DNA of 64,000 nt from Fragilaria crotonensis. Lineage: Eukaryota > Bacillariophyta > Fragilariophyceae > Fragilariales > Fragilariaceae. Of the stretch, positions 17,852 to 29,239 are shown one piece after another. The stretch covers positions 1 to 64,000 of the forward strand of contig JAKSYS010000245.1 of the NCBI GenBank assembly GCA_022925895.1, in the 5' to 3' direction. A program made the position numbers and the translations under genes. The notes under the pieces are model-generated. The model saw only the letters and a program-made list of their open reading frames with translations. It made no database searches and was not told the origin of the DNA. Numbering within the stretch: position 1 is the first letter of the stretch; each line of letters begins with the position of its first letter.

Positions 17852-18806
17852 ATGGTATTCGCATACATGAGCAACCATACCTTTTTGAAGGTTGCGCCGC
17901 GCGACACGTCGAAGCTGTTGGCGATGGCCGGAATTTGTTGGGACGGTTCAGTCACCAACAGACCTGGATCCAGATTTGGTCCACGAGGCATCCGTACCGC
18001 CAGCCATATGCTCTGTGATGGGTATCATCCGCATTTTGGAACGACACCAAGTGGTGTATTGACCGATATGGGCGATTTCAACCTCCCAAACACCAGCTTG
18101 ACGGAAATGCGTGCCAAGCTCAAGCCTCAGGTGATTCCCCTCTTGAACAAATATCACATGATTTGGCTCGGTGGCGATCACAGTATCACCTTCCCCCTCC
18201 TGCAATGCTATCACGAGGTTCTCAAGAGGCCTTTGGCGGTATTGCACTTTGATGCCCATTGCGATACTTGGACTTCTCACTTTGACGAACCCAGTGGCCA
18301 CGGGACTTGGGTGTACGACGCAATCGAGGCGGGTGTGGCAATGAAGGAATGCTTTTTTTCAATTTGGAATCCGTTCGGCAGGAGTGAAATCTGCTCAGGA
18401 ATATGTGAATGAGCAAGGAGGTCGAACATTTACGGCGCGTGACCTACGGGGATTGGAAAGTCCATTACAGTTGGAGGAAACGATCGCGGACGTTTGCTCC
18501 CGGCTGGCTAGTCACGGTAACCCTCCCGTCTATATTTCGTTTGATATTGACTGCTTAGATCCAGCGTTTGCACCTGGGACAGGGACGCCGGAACCTGGAG
18601 GCTTGAGCTCGAGTCAAGCGTTGACCCTGATGGAGGAGTTTGTATCTCGAGTTCCCAATTTGGTGGGAATGGACCTTGTTGAAGTTGCCCCGGCCTACGA
18701 CCATGCCGAGTTAACAACCAACGCTGCGTCAAGCATCGTGTGGACTTACATGTGCGGTATTATTGCGGCATCCCCGGAGATGCAACTACTGCAAGATCCA
18801 CCGTAA
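17852..18806 (+). CDS. Agmatinase/arginase-family ureohydrolase (one frameshift)
   Basis: All metal-binding motifs of the family are visible: GGDHS, DAHCDTW, SGHGT, and [20 protein letters not shown] with the conserved GG after it. These ligate the di-manganese centre that hydrolyses the guanidinium group (agmatine to putrescine plus urea, or a related substrate). The SGHGT and GIR(S) regions look closer to agmatinase than to arginase. The frame breaks at a run of seven T at 18353-18359. With six T the protein continues [10 protein letters not shown] and is 317 residues, the normal length. An overlong homopolymer is the likely cause. The start at 17852 lies just beyond the hAT element. Confidence 0.82.
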
Positions 18807-19197: not shown

Positions 19198-19800
19198 GGA
19201 AATTACAAAATCACGTATTTTTCAGCCACTTTTCAATATAGTACAATGACCCTCTATATACAACTTTACATCTTACTATATCACCGATTTGCTTTTGACG
19301 TTTACAATATCACGCATACATTTGTTCATATATTACTATATCACGCAAACGTGATATAGTAACACATTTTGTCGCCAGCCACATCTTCTCTCCACAGATA
19401 ACATGGTACACCGTATTGTAGCCAATGTCATAAATGAAGAATGGCCAACCTTGCACCACAACCTCTTTCTCCGTCGTTTTGTTTCAATCACTTGTACCTC
19501 TCAGTTTGATTGCGCTAATGTGGTAGTTGTTATCACTCTTGTAGTGTGGTCATTATTTGCGTTGTGCTTCTTCTGTGTTGAACGTTCAAATTCAAATTGA
19601 CCATTGTGGGCGATGCATTTGAATCAACTGAACCTGATACAGTAGTCTACGCACCTTTTGGTATACAGTACCATAATGTTCATCTGAGAAGTACATGAAC
19701 CTAAATCCAGCCCCTTGTCGTCACCCTCATCGAATGCAACATGACGCATATAGTTGTTATGCACACTTGAACTACCTGCCTATTAGAGACTATTAGAGAC
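19198..19800 (+). repeat. Left terminal inverted repeat of the Mutator-like element
   Basis: Inverted copy of 25648-26255. It holds a strong hairpin at 19333-19362 (TTACTATATCACG, CAAA loop, CGTGATATAGTAA). Repeated TATCACG-type words at the outer end are candidate transposase sites. It also contains the small frame at 19403. Confidence 0.9.
19403..19600 (+). CDS. Small hydrophobic frame inside the left TIR
   Basis: 65 residues starting MVHRIVANVINEEW, with one strong membrane segment (VVVVITLVVWSLFALCFFCV). A near-identical copy lies in the other TIR. It may simply be TIR DNA that happens to be open, a captured fragment, or a real small protein; nothing here decides this. Confidence 0.25.
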   Translation: MVHRIVANVINEEWPTLHHNLFLRRFVSITCTSQFDCANVVVVITLVVWSLFALCFFCVERSNSN

Positions 19801-21874
19801 TAGCTGGGGCAACTTCGTTTGTCGTGGCCGGCCGCAGCCACTTCTAGGCACGGACTTTCAGATGCATGAGCACGGCCAGCGGCTACAATCTTCTCCTTTG
19901 CCGCAGTGAAAGTGCCAAATAAGTGATTTGCACCTTTCCAACCAGTTCCTACGGGCGCAGCACCTTCACCGTCTGGCCTAGACACAGATGTGCAGTGCCT
20001 CAGTGCACGGCCATCCCAGCTGATGGCAGTTGCATGAGAAAGCTTTATGGCGATGCCGTTGTAATCCGTACCACATTTCCTCTTGCCGTACAAATTTGGA
20101 ATCAGAAAGTACCAGTTTGATCCACAACCCGGCTTCTCCTCTGTCCATAGACTAAAACCCTGTGAAGCGTCATTCACATCGAAGTGTGACGCGTTTCCCA
20201 GGTCAACGCTTACATCAATTGTGTACCCAACCCGGAGGCCCTTACCATTTCCATCCATCGGAGCTATTGGCACAAGGGACGAATCGGCTTCCACGTTCTG
20301 AACAACGGAAAGGACATCCGGAAAACAGTAGAGGCCAACAGTGGCAAACGCCTCGACAAAGCTCCTCAGTAACGGTTGAGGCACCTTATTGTTTGCAGCG
20401 AACCCGACAGTTGTCATTCCATCCAACAGAACACGGGTCCCAATTGCGTGCATTGTACCAACATCCCCGGTATTCTGCCTCGCCGTGCCCACCGCTGCTT
20501 CTCTCCGAAGGCGAGAATTGTGTTCACCGATCACCTCGATGGAAGCAAGTAGGTCATGCCTGCCCATATGGCAATACCTTGACTCGTGGGAACCATCAAG
20601 AATACTCCTCACCATGATAATCGACTTCCTCCCAACTGCACCAGAACCACTGGGGGGCGATGTCGACAATGATATCAACGAATGGGTGTTCCAACGGGTC
20701 AATCGTCCAACAAGTGTCGGGGATTTTCAGGTGCAAGCACCCCGGGGCGTAATGTCGACCACCCACCCTTGCTGAATTCGAGTTGACAAGGCGGCGATTG
20801 TATTCTTGCGCACGGTCAGCAACTGGCCACGCACCCACATCGTGTCCAGCAATAATGTCTGGTGGCATCCGAGGGCCATCATGATCCGCACATTGCGTTG
20901 ACACGAACACTTCGCGCAGTAACCTTGGTGCTGCTGGATAGTACGAAACTCTCCAGGCAGAGACCCCAGCACTTGTAACGGAAGCAAACCTCTTCACGTA
21001 TCCATCCTCTCCAAATTGTAAACGGAAGTCCGACCCCCGGTGGAACCTGCACCGACATGTTCGTCCTTAGTCGAAACCAACTCATGTCGAGAGCAATGCG
21101 TGAACCTTCAACACCCTCAGTCTTCCTGCGCCAGTCCCTTGCGCAGTAGAACACTCCCGCCCCCGGCAGGAAAGCAAGGAGAGTCCTGTACTTGTAGTCA
21201 TTGGCATCGTCAAGATCCTCAGGTCCGCTTGCAGGCGCCATAATTACATCATCAGGTCCCAATGCAACAACGTCCGCGTCACCAGTTTTAAAAGCACTAC
21301 TTATATTTAAGGTCGCAGCGGCCGTCGGAGTAATCTTTCGGTTACATATCACATCCATGAGAATGAACCCCGAAAGGTACTTCGAAGTGGTGGCATGTTT
21401 CATGAAGACCTCATCCAGTGAGCGCAATTGCGTGATGGCACTGCAATTATCACTAACTTTATAACCGGCTTTCACCTGCTCCTCGTCAGCAAGCCGAAGG
21501 TCCTTGCAGATCGAACAATTAAGCGCATACGATATCCATCTTAAGGGCGTGCCGCATACCTCGACCTCGCCACCAATAGTTCCAGTCAAAGCTGCAGAAC
21601 GAAACGCAATCGTAAAATCGGAAGGGGAAAAAATATCCCTCCCATCCAGGGGGAAGCACTTCAGTAGCAGTGCCAACACTTTCGGACCTGAAGGGAAGTA
21701 ATTCCTTCTCGCCCGCTTTCGTGGCATCTTGTTACTGAGCCGCTTCCTCGAGGCGGGCACCGCCACCACCCTTGGATTATCCTTCCCGAGGTTTAGTACA
21801 GTAGTGCGACAAATCGACGTCCGACCTCGCATCTTCAACGCATCATTGTCTTCATTCCGAACCAATCCTGACAT
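19800..21874 (-). CDS. Transposon accessory protein with 2-oxoglutarate/Fe(II) dioxygenase-like C-terminal region (two frame breaks)
   Basis: Three overlapping minus-strand frames (21874-20879, 20997-20596, 20702-19800) read as one ~690-residue protein if one base is dropped from a GGGGG run near 21037 and one from a CCCCCC run near 20657. The N-terminus is basic (NKMPRKRARRNY). The C-terminal third carries an HxD (ASHFDVND, His codon 20186, Asp codon 20180) and a distal His 63 residues later (WDGRALRHCTSV, His codon 19997) followed by Arg. Hydrophobic strands lie between (NWYFLIPNL, GIAIKLSHATAISWDG). This spacing matches the jelly-roll fold of 2OG-Fe(II) oxygenases such as prolyl hydroxylases, AlkB or TET/JBP. 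The family assignment is an inference; the rest is unrecognised. Confidence 0.5.
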
Positions 21875-21909
21875 ACTACCGTGAACTCCCAGCTAGATGG
21901 CAGGCAGAG

Positions 21910-22077
21910 ACAGCGTATCGTCAGTCAGCAGCACAACAAACACGCCCGGCTAGATGGCAGGGAACTGATGATGTGCTTCCAAGCGGATCGAATAAATGAT
22001 GAGCAACGAGCGTCCATGCGCGTCGTCCGTAAGCAGCGCAACAAACACCCCGGCTAGATGGCAAATGATGATGCGCT
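21910..22077. repeat. Imperfect direct repeats in the divergent promoter
   Basis: Two ~50-bp imperfect copies (about 21914-21971 and 22022-22077) share AGCAGC, CAACAAACAC and GGCTAGATGGCA. A third copy of the core CTAGATGGCAG lies at 21893. The repeats are upstream of the accessory gene and may be regulatory. Confidence 0.65.
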
Positions 22078-22285
22078 CCTCAACAACAGACGCAATGCTG
22101 ATCAGCAAGAAGTCAATGTGTGAGAGGCAGCGAAGTGTGATCAAGGAAATGCATTTTCGCGCAATTTTGCATTTGGTTGACACCCTGATGTACTGGCGTA
22201 CACGTATGTATGCATACGTGGTGTAGTATGACGTTGTCATTGCGCGCGTGCAAGACGTCAAAAATTCATACATGCCACAGTTCAT

Positions 22286-22321
22286 TAAGTGTCTATTCTT
22301 GCGCGCAAGAATAGACACTTA
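22286..22321. repeat. 36-bp perfect palindrome
   Basis: The half-site TAAGTGTCTATTCTTGCG is followed directly by its exact reverse complement with no loop. It lies between the two divergent genes of the Mutator-like element. Confidence 0.95.
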
Positions 22322-22540
22322 GGAGTATCTGAACAGATTTGTACCATACCGGTAGTAATACAACAGCAATGCGGTTTCCAATATACAGTAAAGTATTTCA
22401 TAAGGATGCAGTGCCGTTTATAACAGTTTATAAGGAGTGATGCCAATGTAGTACAAATACAGCATAGCTACTACTTCTTCATCGTCTTCTCAAAGCATTG
22501 TTTCCTTTGTCGTCAAATACTGATCAGAACACGATAAACC

Positions 22541-25500
22541 ATGGCAAAGAAGGCAAAGAAATGCTTTCCAGGCGATCCCCGCTTTTCGGGATGGATATCT
22601 CCAAGTAGCGAGGATATTTCTGCACTACCGCGTAATGCTTGGTTGAGCACGTTGCTGTTGGACTGCATACTGCAGCGATCTGCGCCGCCGGTGGATGTGA
22701 CATCCACTGACACTTTTCATATTGGGAGTCTTGGCACCCGAACTTACATCCAGTCATGTAACGATCTGATCACGTATGTACCCAATGGACCCGACGCGGT
22801 TCAAGTGGGAGGGCAAACCGACGAAAAGTTTCACGCATTCGTGCATCTTTGCAATCTTGTTTCCGATCCCGTCCCGTCAGCAGGCTCCTTATACCGATTG
22901 TCTTGGTACACCACTTTTTTGTGCTTTGCTTGGATTGTTCGTTCTCTAGTCGAGAATTTATTACCAATTTGACAATTTACGATTCCCTGCAACGCCGCAC
23001 TCGTCAAATTAATCCCGACGTCGCAACCATCGTAAAGGAAGTCAACTACTTCGTGCGGTTCTACATTCTTCAAGAGGAGGAACATGAGCACCTTCGACTG
23101 ACGGATGAGGCCTTGCTTAAACGAGTGGAGTATGGAGAATGTCCACGTCAGTTGAACGGATTTGATTGCGGTTTATTTGCAGTTGGCATCGTTTTGCACC
23201 TTGTCGAGGGTAAGGTGATCACGATGGAAACGTTTACTCAACAAGACATCACCGGTTTGCGGGCTAAACTGACGGCCGTGTTTGGGGGAGAGGGCACCGG
23301 ATTAGGGACGACAAGTCAGGTTGTCCGCGCCTGCTTCCCAAAACTGAATGGAAGTAGCATCCTTGATACTTTTGGTGTGGAGGTACTGGACGTGCCTGCC
23401 GCGGAAGTACACCAAGTCAGGTCGGCGGGCGGCAGTTCGATTACGGAGGAGGTGGAAACTGCTGTGAACAAGGAAAACACGATGGATACTGCTGGCCATT
23501 CGGGAAGTGACGAAGACATGGAAACCGCTGTGGAAAAGTGCGCATCACTACTTGCTGCTACTGACGATGATTCGGCGAATGGCAACGAGGATGCGCTTAG
23601 TTATCACACTTGCGAGGACAGCGAGAGCAGTAGTGAGCTTAAGGATGATAATGTTACAGATTTTCGAACAGGAAATGAAGGGAGCAATCTGGCAAAGCCA
23701 GTGCCCGTCAACAAGTCTCCTGACGTATTGTTCTATGACATAATGAGGGACGCGAAGGTGGATTGCTTTGCGACGTTGGAAGAGGTGATGCCATTAATTG
23801 AAACGTATGAGATTCGGTCAGGAAATCACTTGCGGGTGCAACGCTCACTCCGAAATCAATTTAAGCAGTTCCAATGTCGGGAGCATGTCAACTGTCCATT
23901 CCAAATTTTAATATCGAGGCGGCGATCTGACGGCAGGTTTGGCGTGTCGAAGATTAAGGGTTTGCATGGCGACGTGCGACGAGCTCCGCTCGCGGCTGAT
24001 GGGCGGCATTGGAAGAAGCGACATCCGAACCTGCATGGAATTATTGGTCAGGTGGTTCAAACAAAGGAAGGAACACCGACACCGGCAGACGTTCAGAAGA
24101 CGGCTGCGACACGTTCTGGTCTGATTGTGCCGTACATGACTGCGTACCGAGCACTGACCCATGAAACAAGCGCTCAAAAGGCTGCAACGTTGAAAAACTT
24201 CGAGATGATTATCCCTTTTTTGGAAGCGTTGAAGAGCTGTAACCCTGATTCCATTATTGGATGCGAGAGGGATAAGGACATGAGGGTCGTTGAGCTGCAT
24301 GTTTTCCCCGGGATCATGAACCGAGCGCTGAAGTTTGTGCGCCCGGTACTGTCTTTGGATGCCGCCCACCTGAAGAGTGTGTTCAAAGGCACTCTGTACG
24401 TTGCATCAGTTCTGACGGGTAGCAATGATATCTTCCCAATTGGATTCATGATCTCGGCAGGCAATGAGGATGGTGCTTCGTGGCGAAAGATGCTTCGTTA
24501 TCTGAAGAAAGCGTGCCCAATCATTGGAGAGCAGGTGTACGGAAATGTTGACGTGGATGGGGTCGCGAGGCCCCCATTTCTGTTCATTTCTGACCGAGAC
24601 AAGGGTCTGAAACCGGCGTTGAAAGCAGTGTTCCCTGATAAATTTGAGATGAGCTGCGCAAAACACATCGAGGGCAACGTGGCGCAGAAGTTTGGCAAGC
24701 AGTGTTCCAAATATGTATTGGCAATTGCAAAAACATTTTCGACAAGAAATTCTAGTCGCTTATTTGAAGAGGTACGCAGGATTAAGCCGGAAGCTGCAAC
24801 ATACCTGGATGAAATCACAGACAAGGATCGTGTTCTGTGGCGGACCACTCAGTGGTACTCATCTTCTACCGCCGTTGTCATTCCACCAAGGTATGGAATT
24901 GTGACGTCAAACACAAGTGAGGCAGTGAACAATATGTTCTCTGAAGCTAGAGACCTGGGGTGGTTAGAGTGTGTGAACAAACTCATCGACATCATGTCGA
25001 CAAGGATATACGTGTGCAGAAAGAAGTACAGTGAACGTGAGGGGTCCGAAGTGGTGCCTAGAGTTGCGCAGATAATGAAGGTTAGGTGGGATGCAGCTGC
25101 TAGCATGACGGTTGTCGAGTTGGAAAGTGGATGCGGTGACTTTAAGGTCGTAGAACCATCATCACTTGCGGAGGATGACCTTGCTGAGAATACAGTACGA
25201 TCGTCAGCAGGATACCTGGACCAAAACCGCATCAACATAGTAAAGCCAGACCTTCAATGGTGCAGCTGCGGTGTCTGGCAAGACTTCTTGTACCCCTGTC
25301 GACATGCGTGTGCAGTCTTCAGGAAATGGAAAGAAAAAGACTTCACCTATGTCATCGGCAATTTGGTGCATCCCTACTACAGTTTCGAGTTTGTACAAAA
25401 CACGTTCAGGAGCAACGTCTTCCCCGTCTGCTTGGAAACACTCGAATATGATGGCGTGACGAAGGAACCAGCATTGCCAAAGCGACAGGCGGGACGCCCG

Positions 25501-25665
25501 AAGACAAAACGAATTCGCAGACGAAGTAAATTTGTCGAATTGAAGCAGTCGCCTGTAACATGTTCCATCTGTGGGAAAAGGGGTCACAACCGACGAAGTT
25601 GTGTTCCGTCTGTGCAGAAAGGTGCCAAGTCCAACGAAATTGCCCCAGTCTCTAATAGTGTCTAA
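22541..25665 (+). CDS. Ulp1-like C48 cysteine protease fused to MULE transposase
   Basis: Exon 1 starts at 22541. A short intron (tentatively 22828-22883) leads into a frame open to 25665, giving about 1,020 residues. The N-terminal part has the Ulp1/SENP triad: His in PIVLVHHFFVL (about 22909), Asp in LTIYDSL, and Gln/Cys in QLNGFDCGLF (Cys codon about 23167). An acidic Ser/Glu linker follows. The MULE part has an MuDR-like N-terminal DNA-binding region (FKQFQCREHVNCPFQILISR) and the catalytic DDE: Asp in LSLDAAH (24358), Asp in FISDRDKG (24592), Glu in SNTSEAVNN. A SWIM zinc finger (CSC...PCRH) and a C-terminal CCHC knuckle (CSICGKRGHNRRSC) complete it. All key residues are present with no stop, so the enzyme is probably active. 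The stop codon lies inside the right TIR. Confidence 0.85.
22828..22883 (+). other. Probable intron in the Ulp1-MULE gene
   Basis: Donor GTTTCACG and acceptor GTCAGCAG give 56 nt. This join yields DEK-LLIPIVLVHH, close to the Ulp1 pattern before the catalytic His. A simple frameshift is the alternative. Confidence 0.4.
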
Positions 25666-26255
25666 AAGATAATAGGTAATGACAATTTTAGTGTGCGTAA
25701 CAACTATATGCGTCATGTTGCATTCGATGAGGGTGACGACAAGGGGCTGGATTTAGGTTCATGTACTTCTCAGATGAACATTATGGTACTGTATACCAAA
25801 GGTGCGACTACTGTATCAGGTTCAGTTGATTCAAATGCATCGCCCACAATGGTCAATTTGAATTTGAACGTTCAACACAGAAGAAGCACAACGCAAATAA
25901 TGACCACACTACAAGAGTGATAACAACTACCACATTAGCGCAATCAAACTGAGAGGTACAAGAGATTGAAACAAAATGACAGAGAAAGAGGTTGTGGTGC
26001 AAGGTTGGCCATTCTTCATTTATGACATTGGCTACAATACGGTGTACCATGTTATCTGTGGAGAGAAGATGTGGCTGGCGACAAAATGTGTTACTATATC
26101 ACGTTTGCGTGATATAGTAATATATGAACAAATGTATGCGTGATATTGTAAACGTCAAAAGCAAATCGGTGATATAGTAAGATGTAAAGTTGTATATAGA
26201 GGGTCATTGTACTATATTGAAAAGTGGCTGAAAAATACGTGATTTTGTAATTTCC
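25648..26255 (-). repeat. Right terminal inverted repeat of the Mutator-like element
   Basis: Inverted copy of 19198-19800 with a few substitutions in the inner part. It includes the last codons of the transposase and a second copy of the small hydrophobic frame (26050-25853, minus). Confidence 0.9.
25853..26050 (-). CDS. Small hydrophobic frame inside the right TIR
   Basis: Second copy of the 65-residue frame of the left TIR, facing inward. It differs at a few residues (FLCHFVSISC against FLRRFVSITC) yet remains open at the same length. Confidence 0.25.
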   Translation of the reverse strand: MVHRIVANVINEEWPTLHHNLFLCHFVSISCTSQFDCANVVVVITLVVWSLFALCFFCVERSNSN

Positions 26256-26458
26256 ATTTACATTATAAGGGCGGTAAACGAGATTTTCGTCAAACCAAAC
26301 CGGGGTCAGTTCTGACACGAAAAATGGTCCTCGATTAGGAGGGCCTGAGAAAGTTATCACCAGCGATAGTCGGACAATTCCACAACTTCCAACACACGGA
26401 AACCCGCACAGATTTACGACCGGTTCCTTGGCACATCCGTTTCAGCTCCTGTTTTACC

Positions 26459-27374
26459 ATGCCCCCGAGTATCCACCTGACACAGCTATCACCTGCACCT
26501 GCGAAAGAGGCTAGGAGGAAAGCGTCGACGACAAGTCGAGGAAAAGATCGAGAGAAGCAGCGAGAGCATCACGAAACAACAGCTCCGTCGCCTCCAAATC
26601 CCACGCCGCTCGCCGCGACGGATGGTGCCATCTTCCCCATTACCAACTCATCTTCTTTGTACGGCGGCGCTGGTATGTATGGTGGGGGTATGTACGGAGG
26701 TGGATTGTATGGTGGAGGTATGTACGGTGTTTCACCATTTGGAGGAGGAATGCCCCCACCTGGTCCCTTGTCTGGTCTGAATCAGTTTCTATTTGGGGTA
26801 CAGAACGTGGTGTTTTCGTTAGGACAAGCAGTGCAGGTAAGTTAAGCATAGTTCCTCAAGGAGAGAGACTTTGACGCTAACGTCATCCTTCATTCAGATT
26901 ATCGGGATGAATACGCAGGCAATACAGCATCTCCGGAGACAGCCTCGGCTATGTTGGACCACGCTCTGAAAACGTATACTGAGATGCGAAGGCTGGATGC
27001 GAGTAGAAACGAATCAGAATCTGAAGACAAAAAAGAAAAGACGAAGATTGCGAGCTTTGAGGTGGATGATAGTCACGGTTGTCACCTATGCGGGATTCCG
27101 AGTAGTGAAATTAGCCTTGCAAAGGCGTAGACCGAAATCGACCCAATTCAATGGGATGGTTCGCACTATGGCACTCCCCCATCCTTGTCCTATGGAGGCC
27201 TCCATGCGCAGTCGAGCTGGGACATATGATTGCCAAGTGCTGCTCCTACTGGTAGTGGTTACGATACATAGGAAGCAAAGTTACAGCGTTTTCGAAGCCG
27301 TAAAAAGAACGCAAATTCCTGTACCCTTCGGCGTTTCGAAGACTTCCATAGTCCTTAATTCGCCTTTTCGTTAG
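26459..27374 (+). CDS. PEX13: Peroxin-13 homologue (peroxisomal import docking protein), frame broken
   Basis: Exon 1 (26459-26836) ends in a Gly/Tyr-rich stretch (MYGGGMYGGGLYGGGMYG) and the start of the conserved core (LNQFLFGVQNVVFSLGQAVQ). It joins IIGMNTQAIQHL at 26898 through a 61-nt intron. The plant-type PEX13 pattern continues (TASAMLDHALKTYTEMRRL) and reaches a hydrophobic segment (RALRWMIVTVVTYAGFRVVK). PEX13 sits in the peroxisome membrane and docks the PEX5 receptor with PEX14. Two frame corrections are needed: one base missing near 26930 and one extra A in an AAAAAA run near 27027. No SH3 domain was recognised, as in plant PEX13. The C-terminal end is unresolved; 27374 is the end of the frame holding the last hydrophobic helix. 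Confidence 0.65.
26837..26897 (+). other. Intron of PEX13
   Basis: Donor GTAAGT at 26837, acceptor CATTCAG ending 26897. Phase 0; the conserved helix continues as GQAVQ-IIGMNTQA. Confidence 0.75.
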
Positions 27375-27892: not shown

Positions 27893-29239
27893 CTACGGTG
27901 AATGTCGAGGAAGTAGCAACGGAGCCGCAGTCGCCGACAATGCCGGGGCTTCCATGGTAGACGACGTTGCAAACGTCGCCACCTCGGCCTGTTTGGCACG
28001 AAGGTCCTGTGCCACGGGGTGATCTACCACACGGTAAAAGAGCATGTAGGCTTCAGCGTTCAAGACTTCTTGCGAAGTGGCACGCGACACGCGAGCATCA
28101 TCCATTTTCCACCATTCGTTCTTGCTAATGTTCCTCACGTAGGCGACGTAGTGGCCAGAATGCGAGTTTTTGCCCGAATGCACGACGACAGCAAAGAGGC
28201 GACAGAACATGTTCTTAACCTTCCCCGACAGCTGCTCTGTCAGGAACGGTTTAAGATCAAAGATCTCGAGGAATTTGATGTGTCCTTCAATTTTGGCAGA
28301 CCCCGAGGCACCTAGTAGTTGCGACACTTCGCGACCTCGACGAGCCGGAGGGGGTAGAGGCTTGCCGTCGGATCCGTAGCGGAATCGTTTGAGGTGAAGA
28401 GTCAGGATAGGGGGTATCGAGGCCAAGCGGGACTGTTTAGTCGCCCGACCCATCTTGCCGCATCGGTCGCACTTGTATTCTGCAAGCGGTTCCACCTTGG
28501 TGAATCGTTGGAAGGCGGAGCTCAGGTCAGAAAGGGCTGACCCAGACGTATGCGTCACTTCCAAGCCAATATCTTCGATGGGATCGATGGTTGAATTCAT
28601 CGCATGGCAGGAATCGCAACAGACGTTGGACTCGACTGTTCCTCGGAACAATTTAAAGGGATAGAGCTTCTCGTTCTCCGGATTGTCATGAACTGACCCA
28701 TGCCCAGTTGCCTTCGAGGCCAACGCCGACGATTTTTGCATGGCCTCGATGAGGATTCGGAGAAACTCATGCGAGTCTTCTTGGACGCCAAGTTTGAACC
28801 ATGGTGGAGCCACTTGTTCAACGAAGCCATTGACAAAGACCTCCGGGGCGACGGGGTCACCGGATCTCGATCTCGCATGGACCTCAGTAATGTGATCTTC
28901 GAACTCACAAAGGGTGCAAAACTCCATATCCACCGAATCATCCGAGTCTGTGCATGGACTCTTTTTACCAGACCGCCTTGACTTTCGTGTTGATCGCTTT
29001 CTGGAGGGCCCTTCGCAGGACGGACCAGGCGAGGTTCTTCGCCGTTCTTCGTTCCCTCGAGCGATGGGACATGTGAGTTGATGAGGTTCATAATCGATTG
29101 CAAGACAAAGTTCCGGGGCATGAGCCAGCGCCTGAAGGACGGCATTCATGTAACAAGTGTTTCCAAGGTTGGCAACGCCAGAGGCGACCCGCGCTGTTGG
29201 GATGGCGGCAATTCTGGCATGTCGACCCGTAACCGAACG
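27893..29239 (-). CDS. Ubiquitin-specific protease (UBP/USP, C19), first exon not located
   Basis: The catalytic core is complete. The Cys box is NLGNTCYMNAVLQ (Cys codon 29155); QEDSHEFLRILIEAM is the QDE box; the His box is HSGHYVAYVR with WWKMDDARV after it. A zinc-binding pair (CCDSC, and CDRCGK) lies between. These enzymes remove ubiquitin from proteins. A Lys/Arg/Ser-rich insert near the N-terminus (RKRSTRKSRRSGKK) may direct it to the nucleus, as in the USP36/UBP16 groups. Upstream of 29240 the frame meets a stop, right where an acceptor-like TTTGACAG lies, so at least one 5' exon is missing. A frame at 29408-29088 with CPHC and CQNC pairs could belong to it after a one-base shift. Confidence 0.82.
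   Translation of the reverse strand, partial: RSVTGRHARIAAIPTARVASGVANLGNTCYMNAVLQALAHAPELCLAIDYEPHQLTCPIARGNEERRRTSPGPSCEGPSRKRSTRKSRRSGKKSPCTDSDDSVDMEFCTLCEFEDHITEVHARSRSGDPVAPEVFVNGFVEQVAPPWFKLGVQEDSHEFLRILIEAMQKSSALASKATGHGSVHDNPENEKLYPFKLFRGTVESNVCCDSCHAMNSTIDPIEDIGLEVTHTSGSALSDLSSAFQRFTKVEPLAEYKCDRCGKMGRATKQSRLASIPPILTLHLKRFRYGSDGKPLPPPARRGREVSQLLGASGSAKIEGHIKFLEIFDLKPFLTEQLSGKVKNMFCRLFAVVVHSGKNSHSGHYVAYVRNISKNEWWKMDDARVSRATSQEVLNAEAYMLFYRVVDHPVAQDLRAKQAEVATFATSSTMEAPALSATAAPLLLPRHSP

Follow-up and report, generated by a model that had tools for sequence, protein, structure and literature searches.

Genes of the TET/JBP superfamily are carried by many fungal DNA transposons, Plavaka elements included (Kojima 2025, PMC12730594), and that paper nowhere uses the terms Mutator, MULE, diatom, stramenopile, algae, or Ulp1. 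Plavaka transposases are reported outside fungi in Amoebidium (PMC11244446), where, in the accessible text, JBP appears in the reference list only. In plants, the Ulp1 (C48) protease is carried and conserved in the Kaonashi/KIU group of Mutator-like elements (MULEs) (PMC13317346, PMC6117577). In CMD1 of Chlamydomonas, an algal TET homologue not described as transposon-borne in the accessible text, Trp358 (thirteen residues after H345) occupies the place of the strictly conserved Arg with which TET2 and NgTET1 bind 2-oxoglutarate (2OG) (PMC7854593). The element analyzed here lies in a 64,000-nucleotide stretch of the diatom Fragilaria crotonensis (contig JAKSYS010000245.1, positions 1 to 64,000), referred to as the window. 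We consider it probable that it represents a Mutator-like family that joins a fusion of a Ulp1/SENP-fold protease and a DDE/SWIM transposase with a diverged TET/JBP member, and that it carries in these two proteins two anti-silencing tools. The anatomy, the marks of transposition, the predicted folds, the conserved catalytic residues, the purifying selection, and the retention of both genes across subfamilies are results of the analysis; catalysis, substrates, and the anti-silencing role are inferred. Searches of the open-licence literature gave no report of a TET/JBP gene in a MULE, in a stramenopile transposon, or together with Ulp1, green algae and other lineages being outside that search, and the combination may be a variant not described there before, with possible new chemistry.

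Element anatomy and the protease-transposase fusion

The whole element occupied positions 19198..26255 (7058 bp), as delimited by its terminal inverted repeats (TIRs) and by the 99% identical full-length copies L001, L002, and L004. The left TIR (19198..19767, plus strand) was about 570 bp long, and the right TIR was located at 25690..26255 on the minus strand. Their arms paired over 450 bases (19198-19647 with 25806-26255) and over 111 bases (19657-19767 with 25690-25800), with 99% complementarity in both parts, in agreement with an earlier note on this DNA that had described long, near-identical TIRs. The accessory gene (19803..21874, minus strand, start at 21874 and stop at 19800) and the fusion gene (22541..25665, plus strand) were arranged head to head and, by their positions, separated by an intergenic region at 21875..22540. 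The MULE/SWIM DDE transposase and the TIRs, together with a 9-bp target duplication found in other copies, placed the element among the MULEs.

The fusion formed a single frame of 1041 aa in L004, and the ENA data listed P0080 as 100% identical over 100% of this protein. In the window copy, one frame break lay within about 100 codons of the start, ahead of the codon for the catalytic His, and a 967-codon frame was open thereafter; the fusion is real, but the word 'intact' of the earlier note does not fit this copy. Pfam matches to Peptidase_C48 (22885..23271), the RNase H-like MULE transposase domain (24346..24669), the SWIM zinc finger (25252..25326), and Transposase_mut were all above the cut-offs in the region 22849-25662 (plus strand), and the transposase scores were 31.3 bits for PF10551 (cut-off 27.6), 26.5 for PF04434 (19.6), and 24 for PF00872 (21). 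The acidic residues of SLDAAH, SDRDKG, and SNTSEA, which were assigned by eye and of which SNTSEA lay beyond the Pfam match, are likely to form the DDE triad. In the protease, the codons of His, Asp, Gln, and Cys started at 22912, 22981, 23149, and 23167, respectively, and an alignment of 24 relatives showed almost no variation at these four residues (H125, D148, Q204, and C210). The predicted protease model had the Ulp1 fold, which together with the His-Asp-Gln-Cys residues assigned the domain to the Ulp1/SENP proteases (C48). The earlier claim of a Ulp1-like protease with these four residues, N-terminal to the transposase, was confirmed by the Pfam match and by the conserved residues. Compared with the SENP/Ulp1/DEN1 proteases, the domain is distinguished by its fusion to a transposase. 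In our proposal, it would strip SUMO (or NEDD8/ubiquitin) off its targets, which would be silencing proteins or the transposase itself; NEDD8 proteases scored about as well as SENPs against the model, which weighs against naming SUMO as the presumed substrate.

The plant precedent invoked by the earlier note exists, and Kaonashi/KIU elements likewise keep a C48 protease domain in a MULE. However, as described in the accessible parts of the two papers cited above, these are Vandal MULEs of the non-TIR kind, whose Ulp1 has a gene of its own or is part of the VANC gene, whereas in the window element it formed the N-terminus of the transposase, within long TIRs and beside a TET-like gene. Because of the fusion and the long TIRs, the window element was not classified as a Kaonashi/KIU MULE.

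An accessory protein with a predicted TET-like fold

In L001, the accessory gene ran as a single open frame of 690 aa, counted from Met, and in L018 and L019 as one of 799 aa; in the window copy it was spread over three frames (21874-21029, 20997-20599, and 20660-19803). The closest protein, P0001 (MHU86_8685), showed 100% identity across 93% of the query. The predicted accessory model was a double-stranded beta-helix of the TET/JBP type, matching TET2, NgTET1, and CcTet. The alignment contained the HxD...H iron motif of TET/JBP dioxygenases, with the HxD residues H563 and D565 (L001 numbering; 20178..20186, minus strand, as for the following positions) conserved in 63/63 and 62/63 rows and the distal metal-binding His, H626 (19995..19997), in 62/62 rows with a letter. 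D568, five residues after the motif His (H+5; 20169..20171), was conserved in 62/63 rows and stood in the place of the Asp or Asn that contacts 5-methylcytosine in CMD1, TET2, and NgTET1. W576 (H+13; 20145..20147) stood in the place of CMD1 Trp358 and was Trp in 56 and Phe in 7 of the 63 rows. The earlier guess of a TET/JBP-type oxygenase was supported by the predicted fold and by this metal- and base-binding pattern, and a lack of a jelly-roll and of a protease triad in the models, which would have refuted the reading of the earlier note, was not observed, as TET-like and Ulp1 folds were predicted.

Several results weigh against the assignment. None of the 65 accessory members matched Pfam Tet_JBP at E up to 1, and one member matched TrAA12 at 1.4e-6, with no other row better than 0.03. 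The 65-row profile matched nothing credible among the PDB sequences. Without a Tet_JBP match or a PDB sequence match, it is the predicted fold and a short motif that speak for kinship with TET. Additionally, the place of the Arg that binds the C5-carboxylate of 2OG, six residues before the stacking Phe/Tyr (F655-6), was Asn in 57 and Gly in 5 of 62 rows and Arg in none, in a register inferred from spacing rather than from a residue-level structural alignment. Since the canonical Arg is absent, the accessory protein may not use 2OG.

These positions bear on the chemistry that the protein would perform, for which our proposal has two variants. A standard 2OG-dependent TET/JBP-type oxygenase of 5-methylcytosine (or N6-methyladenine), with the 2OG-binding basic residue supplied from elsewhere in the fold, is a plausible reading, though somewhat short of probable. 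The match of the predicted fold to TET2, NgTET1, and CcTet argues for it, as do the carriage of TET/JBP genes by fungal transposons and the presence of further invariant basic residues, namely R625 (62/62), R622 (62/63), and K659 (62/62); the absence of the Arg strictly conserved in TET2 and NgTET1 (PMC7854593) and the bulky residue at H+13 argue against it. A CMD1-like enzyme, for which ascorbate (or another co-substrate) would replace 2OG and which would write a bulky C5 cytosine modification, re-marking rather than erasing, is possible but doubtful. The accessory protein shares with CMD1 the HxD motif, the Asp at H+5 (Asp350 of CMD1), the Trp, or else Phe, at H+13 in all rows, the aromatic stacking residue, and a Lys four residues later (F+4, 62/62, the spacing of CMD1 Lys420), and the Asn or Gly in the place of the 2OG Arg points in the same direction. 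However, the place of Ser414 was occupied by G653 in 62/62 rows and that of Arg418 (F+2) by Ala in 51/62 and never by Arg, in CMD1 itself the position that corresponds in sequence to the 2OG Arg is still an Arg (Arg410), and here too the register was taken from spacing instead of a residue-level structural alignment. Identity to CMD1 in structural alignments was 12-14%, and the Z score was higher for TET2 than for CMD1. The accessory family would offer new base-modifying enzymes and, on the CMD1-like reading, may be the second example of an enzyme with ascorbate as its co-substrate.

The missing 2OG Arg would also suit a catalytically idle DNA-binding relative that acts as a sequence-specific anti-silencing factor, similar to the VANC proteins of plant Vandal MULEs, which, in the accessible accounts, direct hypomethylation of related Vandal copies. 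VANC is not known to be an oxygenase. Such a role is improbable here, because the metal ligands H563, D565, and H626 were kept at the frequencies given above, under purifying selection. We favor the view that the accessory protein would be a highly diverged new member of the TET/JBP superfamily of Fe(II)-dependent DNA-base oxygenases. It would most likely oxidize or otherwise alter 5-methylcytosine on the DNA of the element and thereby lift or mask host cytosine methylation. With a TET-like gene beside a transposase-fused protease, a joint attack on DNA methylation and SUMO-dependent silencing becomes directly testable.

Copies, transposition marks and selection

In the genome searched (62.1 Mb), one TIR as query gave at least 43 matches and the accessory region at least 65, both searches scoring the best candidates only, and 20 places were retrieved for comparison of the copies. 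Subfamily A, consisting of the window copy and L001-L006, was 97.1-99.9% identical over the aligned DNA (L007 was left out because a contig end cuts it). Subfamilies B (L008-L011 and the partial L012) and C (L018-L020) retained the head-to-head layout; their accessory DNA was about 71% identical to that of A, and their fusion DNA 67-72%. The ratio of nonsynonymous to synonymous rates (omega), taken between A and C, was 0.153 for the accessory (667 codons), 0.152 for the protease part (326), and 0.111 for the transposase (501), each from one pair and with a synonymous divergence of 1.3-2.2, near saturation. All three coding parts are under purifying selection. It is very improbable that the accessory and the protease were captured by chance and do nothing for the element. 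MULEs often pick up gene pieces, according to the accessible literature, and a sister Ulp1-MULE described below (L023) has no accessory, but the frames were long and open in L001, L004, L018, and L019, the omega of the accessory was low, the layout was constant across subfamilies so diverged in DNA, and the MULE-borne accessories grouped in one clade of the tree described below.

Transposition is evidenced by the perfect 9-bp duplications of other copies. With the element ends taken as GGGG...CCCC, a perfect AT-rich duplication was found in 7 of 14 rows (L001, L002, L003, L008, L009, L016, and L020), at six different sites, as L001 and L002 were one site with flanks common to both. The duplication matched at 8 of 9 positions in L010 and L018, 7-9 bases not flush with the element ends were shared in L004 and L005, and L006 and L011 were truncated by contig ends. 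The window copy itself had no target-site duplication at its ends; its right flank (26256-26800) also flanked L006 (C28:106098-106648), where contig C28 ends at the far TIR, and no second occurrence of its left flank was found in the genome. The window copy may therefore have arisen by recombination among copies, or the assembly may have joined two sequences within the repeat.

Compared with its open-frame relatives, the window copy carried two 1-bp frame breaks in the accessory and one in the fusion, which counts against our proposal. The frame-breaking indels of the accessory relative to L001 numbered 3, 2, 4, 8, and 14 in L002, L003, L004, L005, and L006, respectively, and those of the fusion relative to L004 numbered 7, 6, 4, 3, and 12 in L001, L002, L003, L005, and L006. 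Pairs within subfamily B differed by 1-6 substitutions yet by 20-36 indels, 6-14 of which lay in homopolymers of 4 or more, and this suggests that many frame breaks are assembly errors. The same copies were near-identical in substitutions yet located at different sites, which suggests that the family was recently active, with very recent movement. All 48 differentially expressed mobilome genes of Fragilaria crotonensis were up at high pH (PMC9732472), and the window family is not named in the accessible text.

Shortened copies were also observed. L003 had lost 1.66 kb of the fusion and retained both TIRs, and L016 (564-1639, contig C42) was a 1,076-bp derivative similar to the element in its ends only. 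Together with C230:40983-42051 and C87:36276-37351, it belonged to derivatives of about 1.08 kb with the ends of the element, of which L016 alone was read; these are apparently non-autonomous copies. At C482:134707-155930, TIR matches 21 kb apart enclosed accessory and transposase pieces, which suggests nested insertions in a single old copy.

The genome contained 13 matches to the C5-methyltransferase family. Among singleton changes in six subfamily A copies (4839 of 7345 columns kept), transitions affected 23/481 CpG sites and 9/1716 other C/G sites (P 1.6e-9), a pattern that fits CpG methylation of the element in a comparison without a non-transposon control. Other counts reduce its weight. 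Transversions were also raised at CpG (7/481 versus 6/1716), the contrast of transitions to transversions alone was not significant (P 0.30), the excess of transitions in subfamily C was weak (9/757 CpG versus 9/2477 other, P 0.02), and subfamily B had too few changes (1/821 versus 0/2688).

Pairing of the two genes and relatives beside other transposases

At least 57 accessory, 63 transposase, and 44 C48 loci were placed, with alleles unmerged; the 21 accessory loci that shared 68% or more of their sequence with L001 formed the MULE clade. Within 8 kb of these 21 loci, C48 and transposase were both found at 13, transposase only at 4, and neither at 4, so copies mostly lacking one of the genes, which would have spoken against the earlier note, were not the rule. 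Against a general pairing, 43 of the 63 transposase loci had no accessory match within 8 kb, although two of them, on C318 and C798, showed accessory DNA in the genome search with the accessory region. Similarly, L023 3393-7745 (contig C49), a 4.35-kb Ulp1-MULE of a sister lineage with its own 93% TIRs, had no accessory. The pairing of accessory and fusion therefore marks one clade of Ulp1-MULEs. It probably exists outside this genome as well. In ENA, an accessory of 722 aa (P0003, 65% identical) and a fusion of 1038 aa (P0081, 61%) were each assigned to a contig of 8142 bases, the sole contig size common to both lists, and are most likely one element of an environmental relative.

Outside the MULE clade there were 36 accessory loci, and flanks were inspected at five of them. 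On C137 (L021/L024/L027), C471 (L025), C109 near 131 kb (L026), and C529 (L029), the accessory relative was located tail to tail with a second transposase type. The transposase on C529 matched Pfam Plavaka with 31.8 bits (cut-off 26.3), and those on C137, C471, and C109 had no Pfam match of their own; similarity to the C137 protein was 22% for C529 (E 4e-33), 74% for C471, and 27% for C109 (E 1e-7). On C592 (L022/L028), a TET-like gene was near an 880-codon MULE/ZSWIM-type transposase frame, where no Ulp1 match was seen and element limits were not found. In a midpoint-rooted tree of 59 proteins, with the neighbor known for 7 rows, the three known MULE-borne accessories fell within one clade of 8 rows (100/100), sister to a clade containing two of the three Plavaka-borne rows. 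The simplest history would be that the gene moved once, leaving a Plavaka-type carrier for the Ulp1-MULE.

Such a move would resemble that of TET/JBP genes among fungal transposons, whose spread, as stated in the earlier note, agrees with the accessible text of PMC12730594. The fungal and diatom elements are alike in having a TET/JBP-fold gene inside a DNA transposon and in counting Plavaka among, or beside, its carriers. They differ in that here the host is a diatom, a MULE whose transposase is fused to Ulp1 serves as carrier, and the enzyme has diverged beyond detection by Tet_JBP. The reports of transposon-borne TET/JBP genes that we found concern fungi, and the diatom TET-fold family escapes the Pfam model; this suggests that the capture of a DNA-mark eraser or rewriter recurs across eukaryotes and that sequence models overlook part of it. 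The fullest version, in which a transposon-borne CMD1-like enzyme with vitamin C or another non-2OG co-substrate writes a new bulky mark, a transposase-linked protease acts on SUMO or NEDD8, and the TET-like gene moves between Plavaka and MULE, is rather unlikely as a whole; if true, diatom transposons would evade silencing by two routes of their own making.

Two neighboring genes were judged by eye. An arginase/agmatinase-like gene was located immediately to the left of the element (17852-18806, in two overlapping frames), and a frame similar to USP-type ubiquitin hydrolases was found at 27893-29149 on the minus strand.
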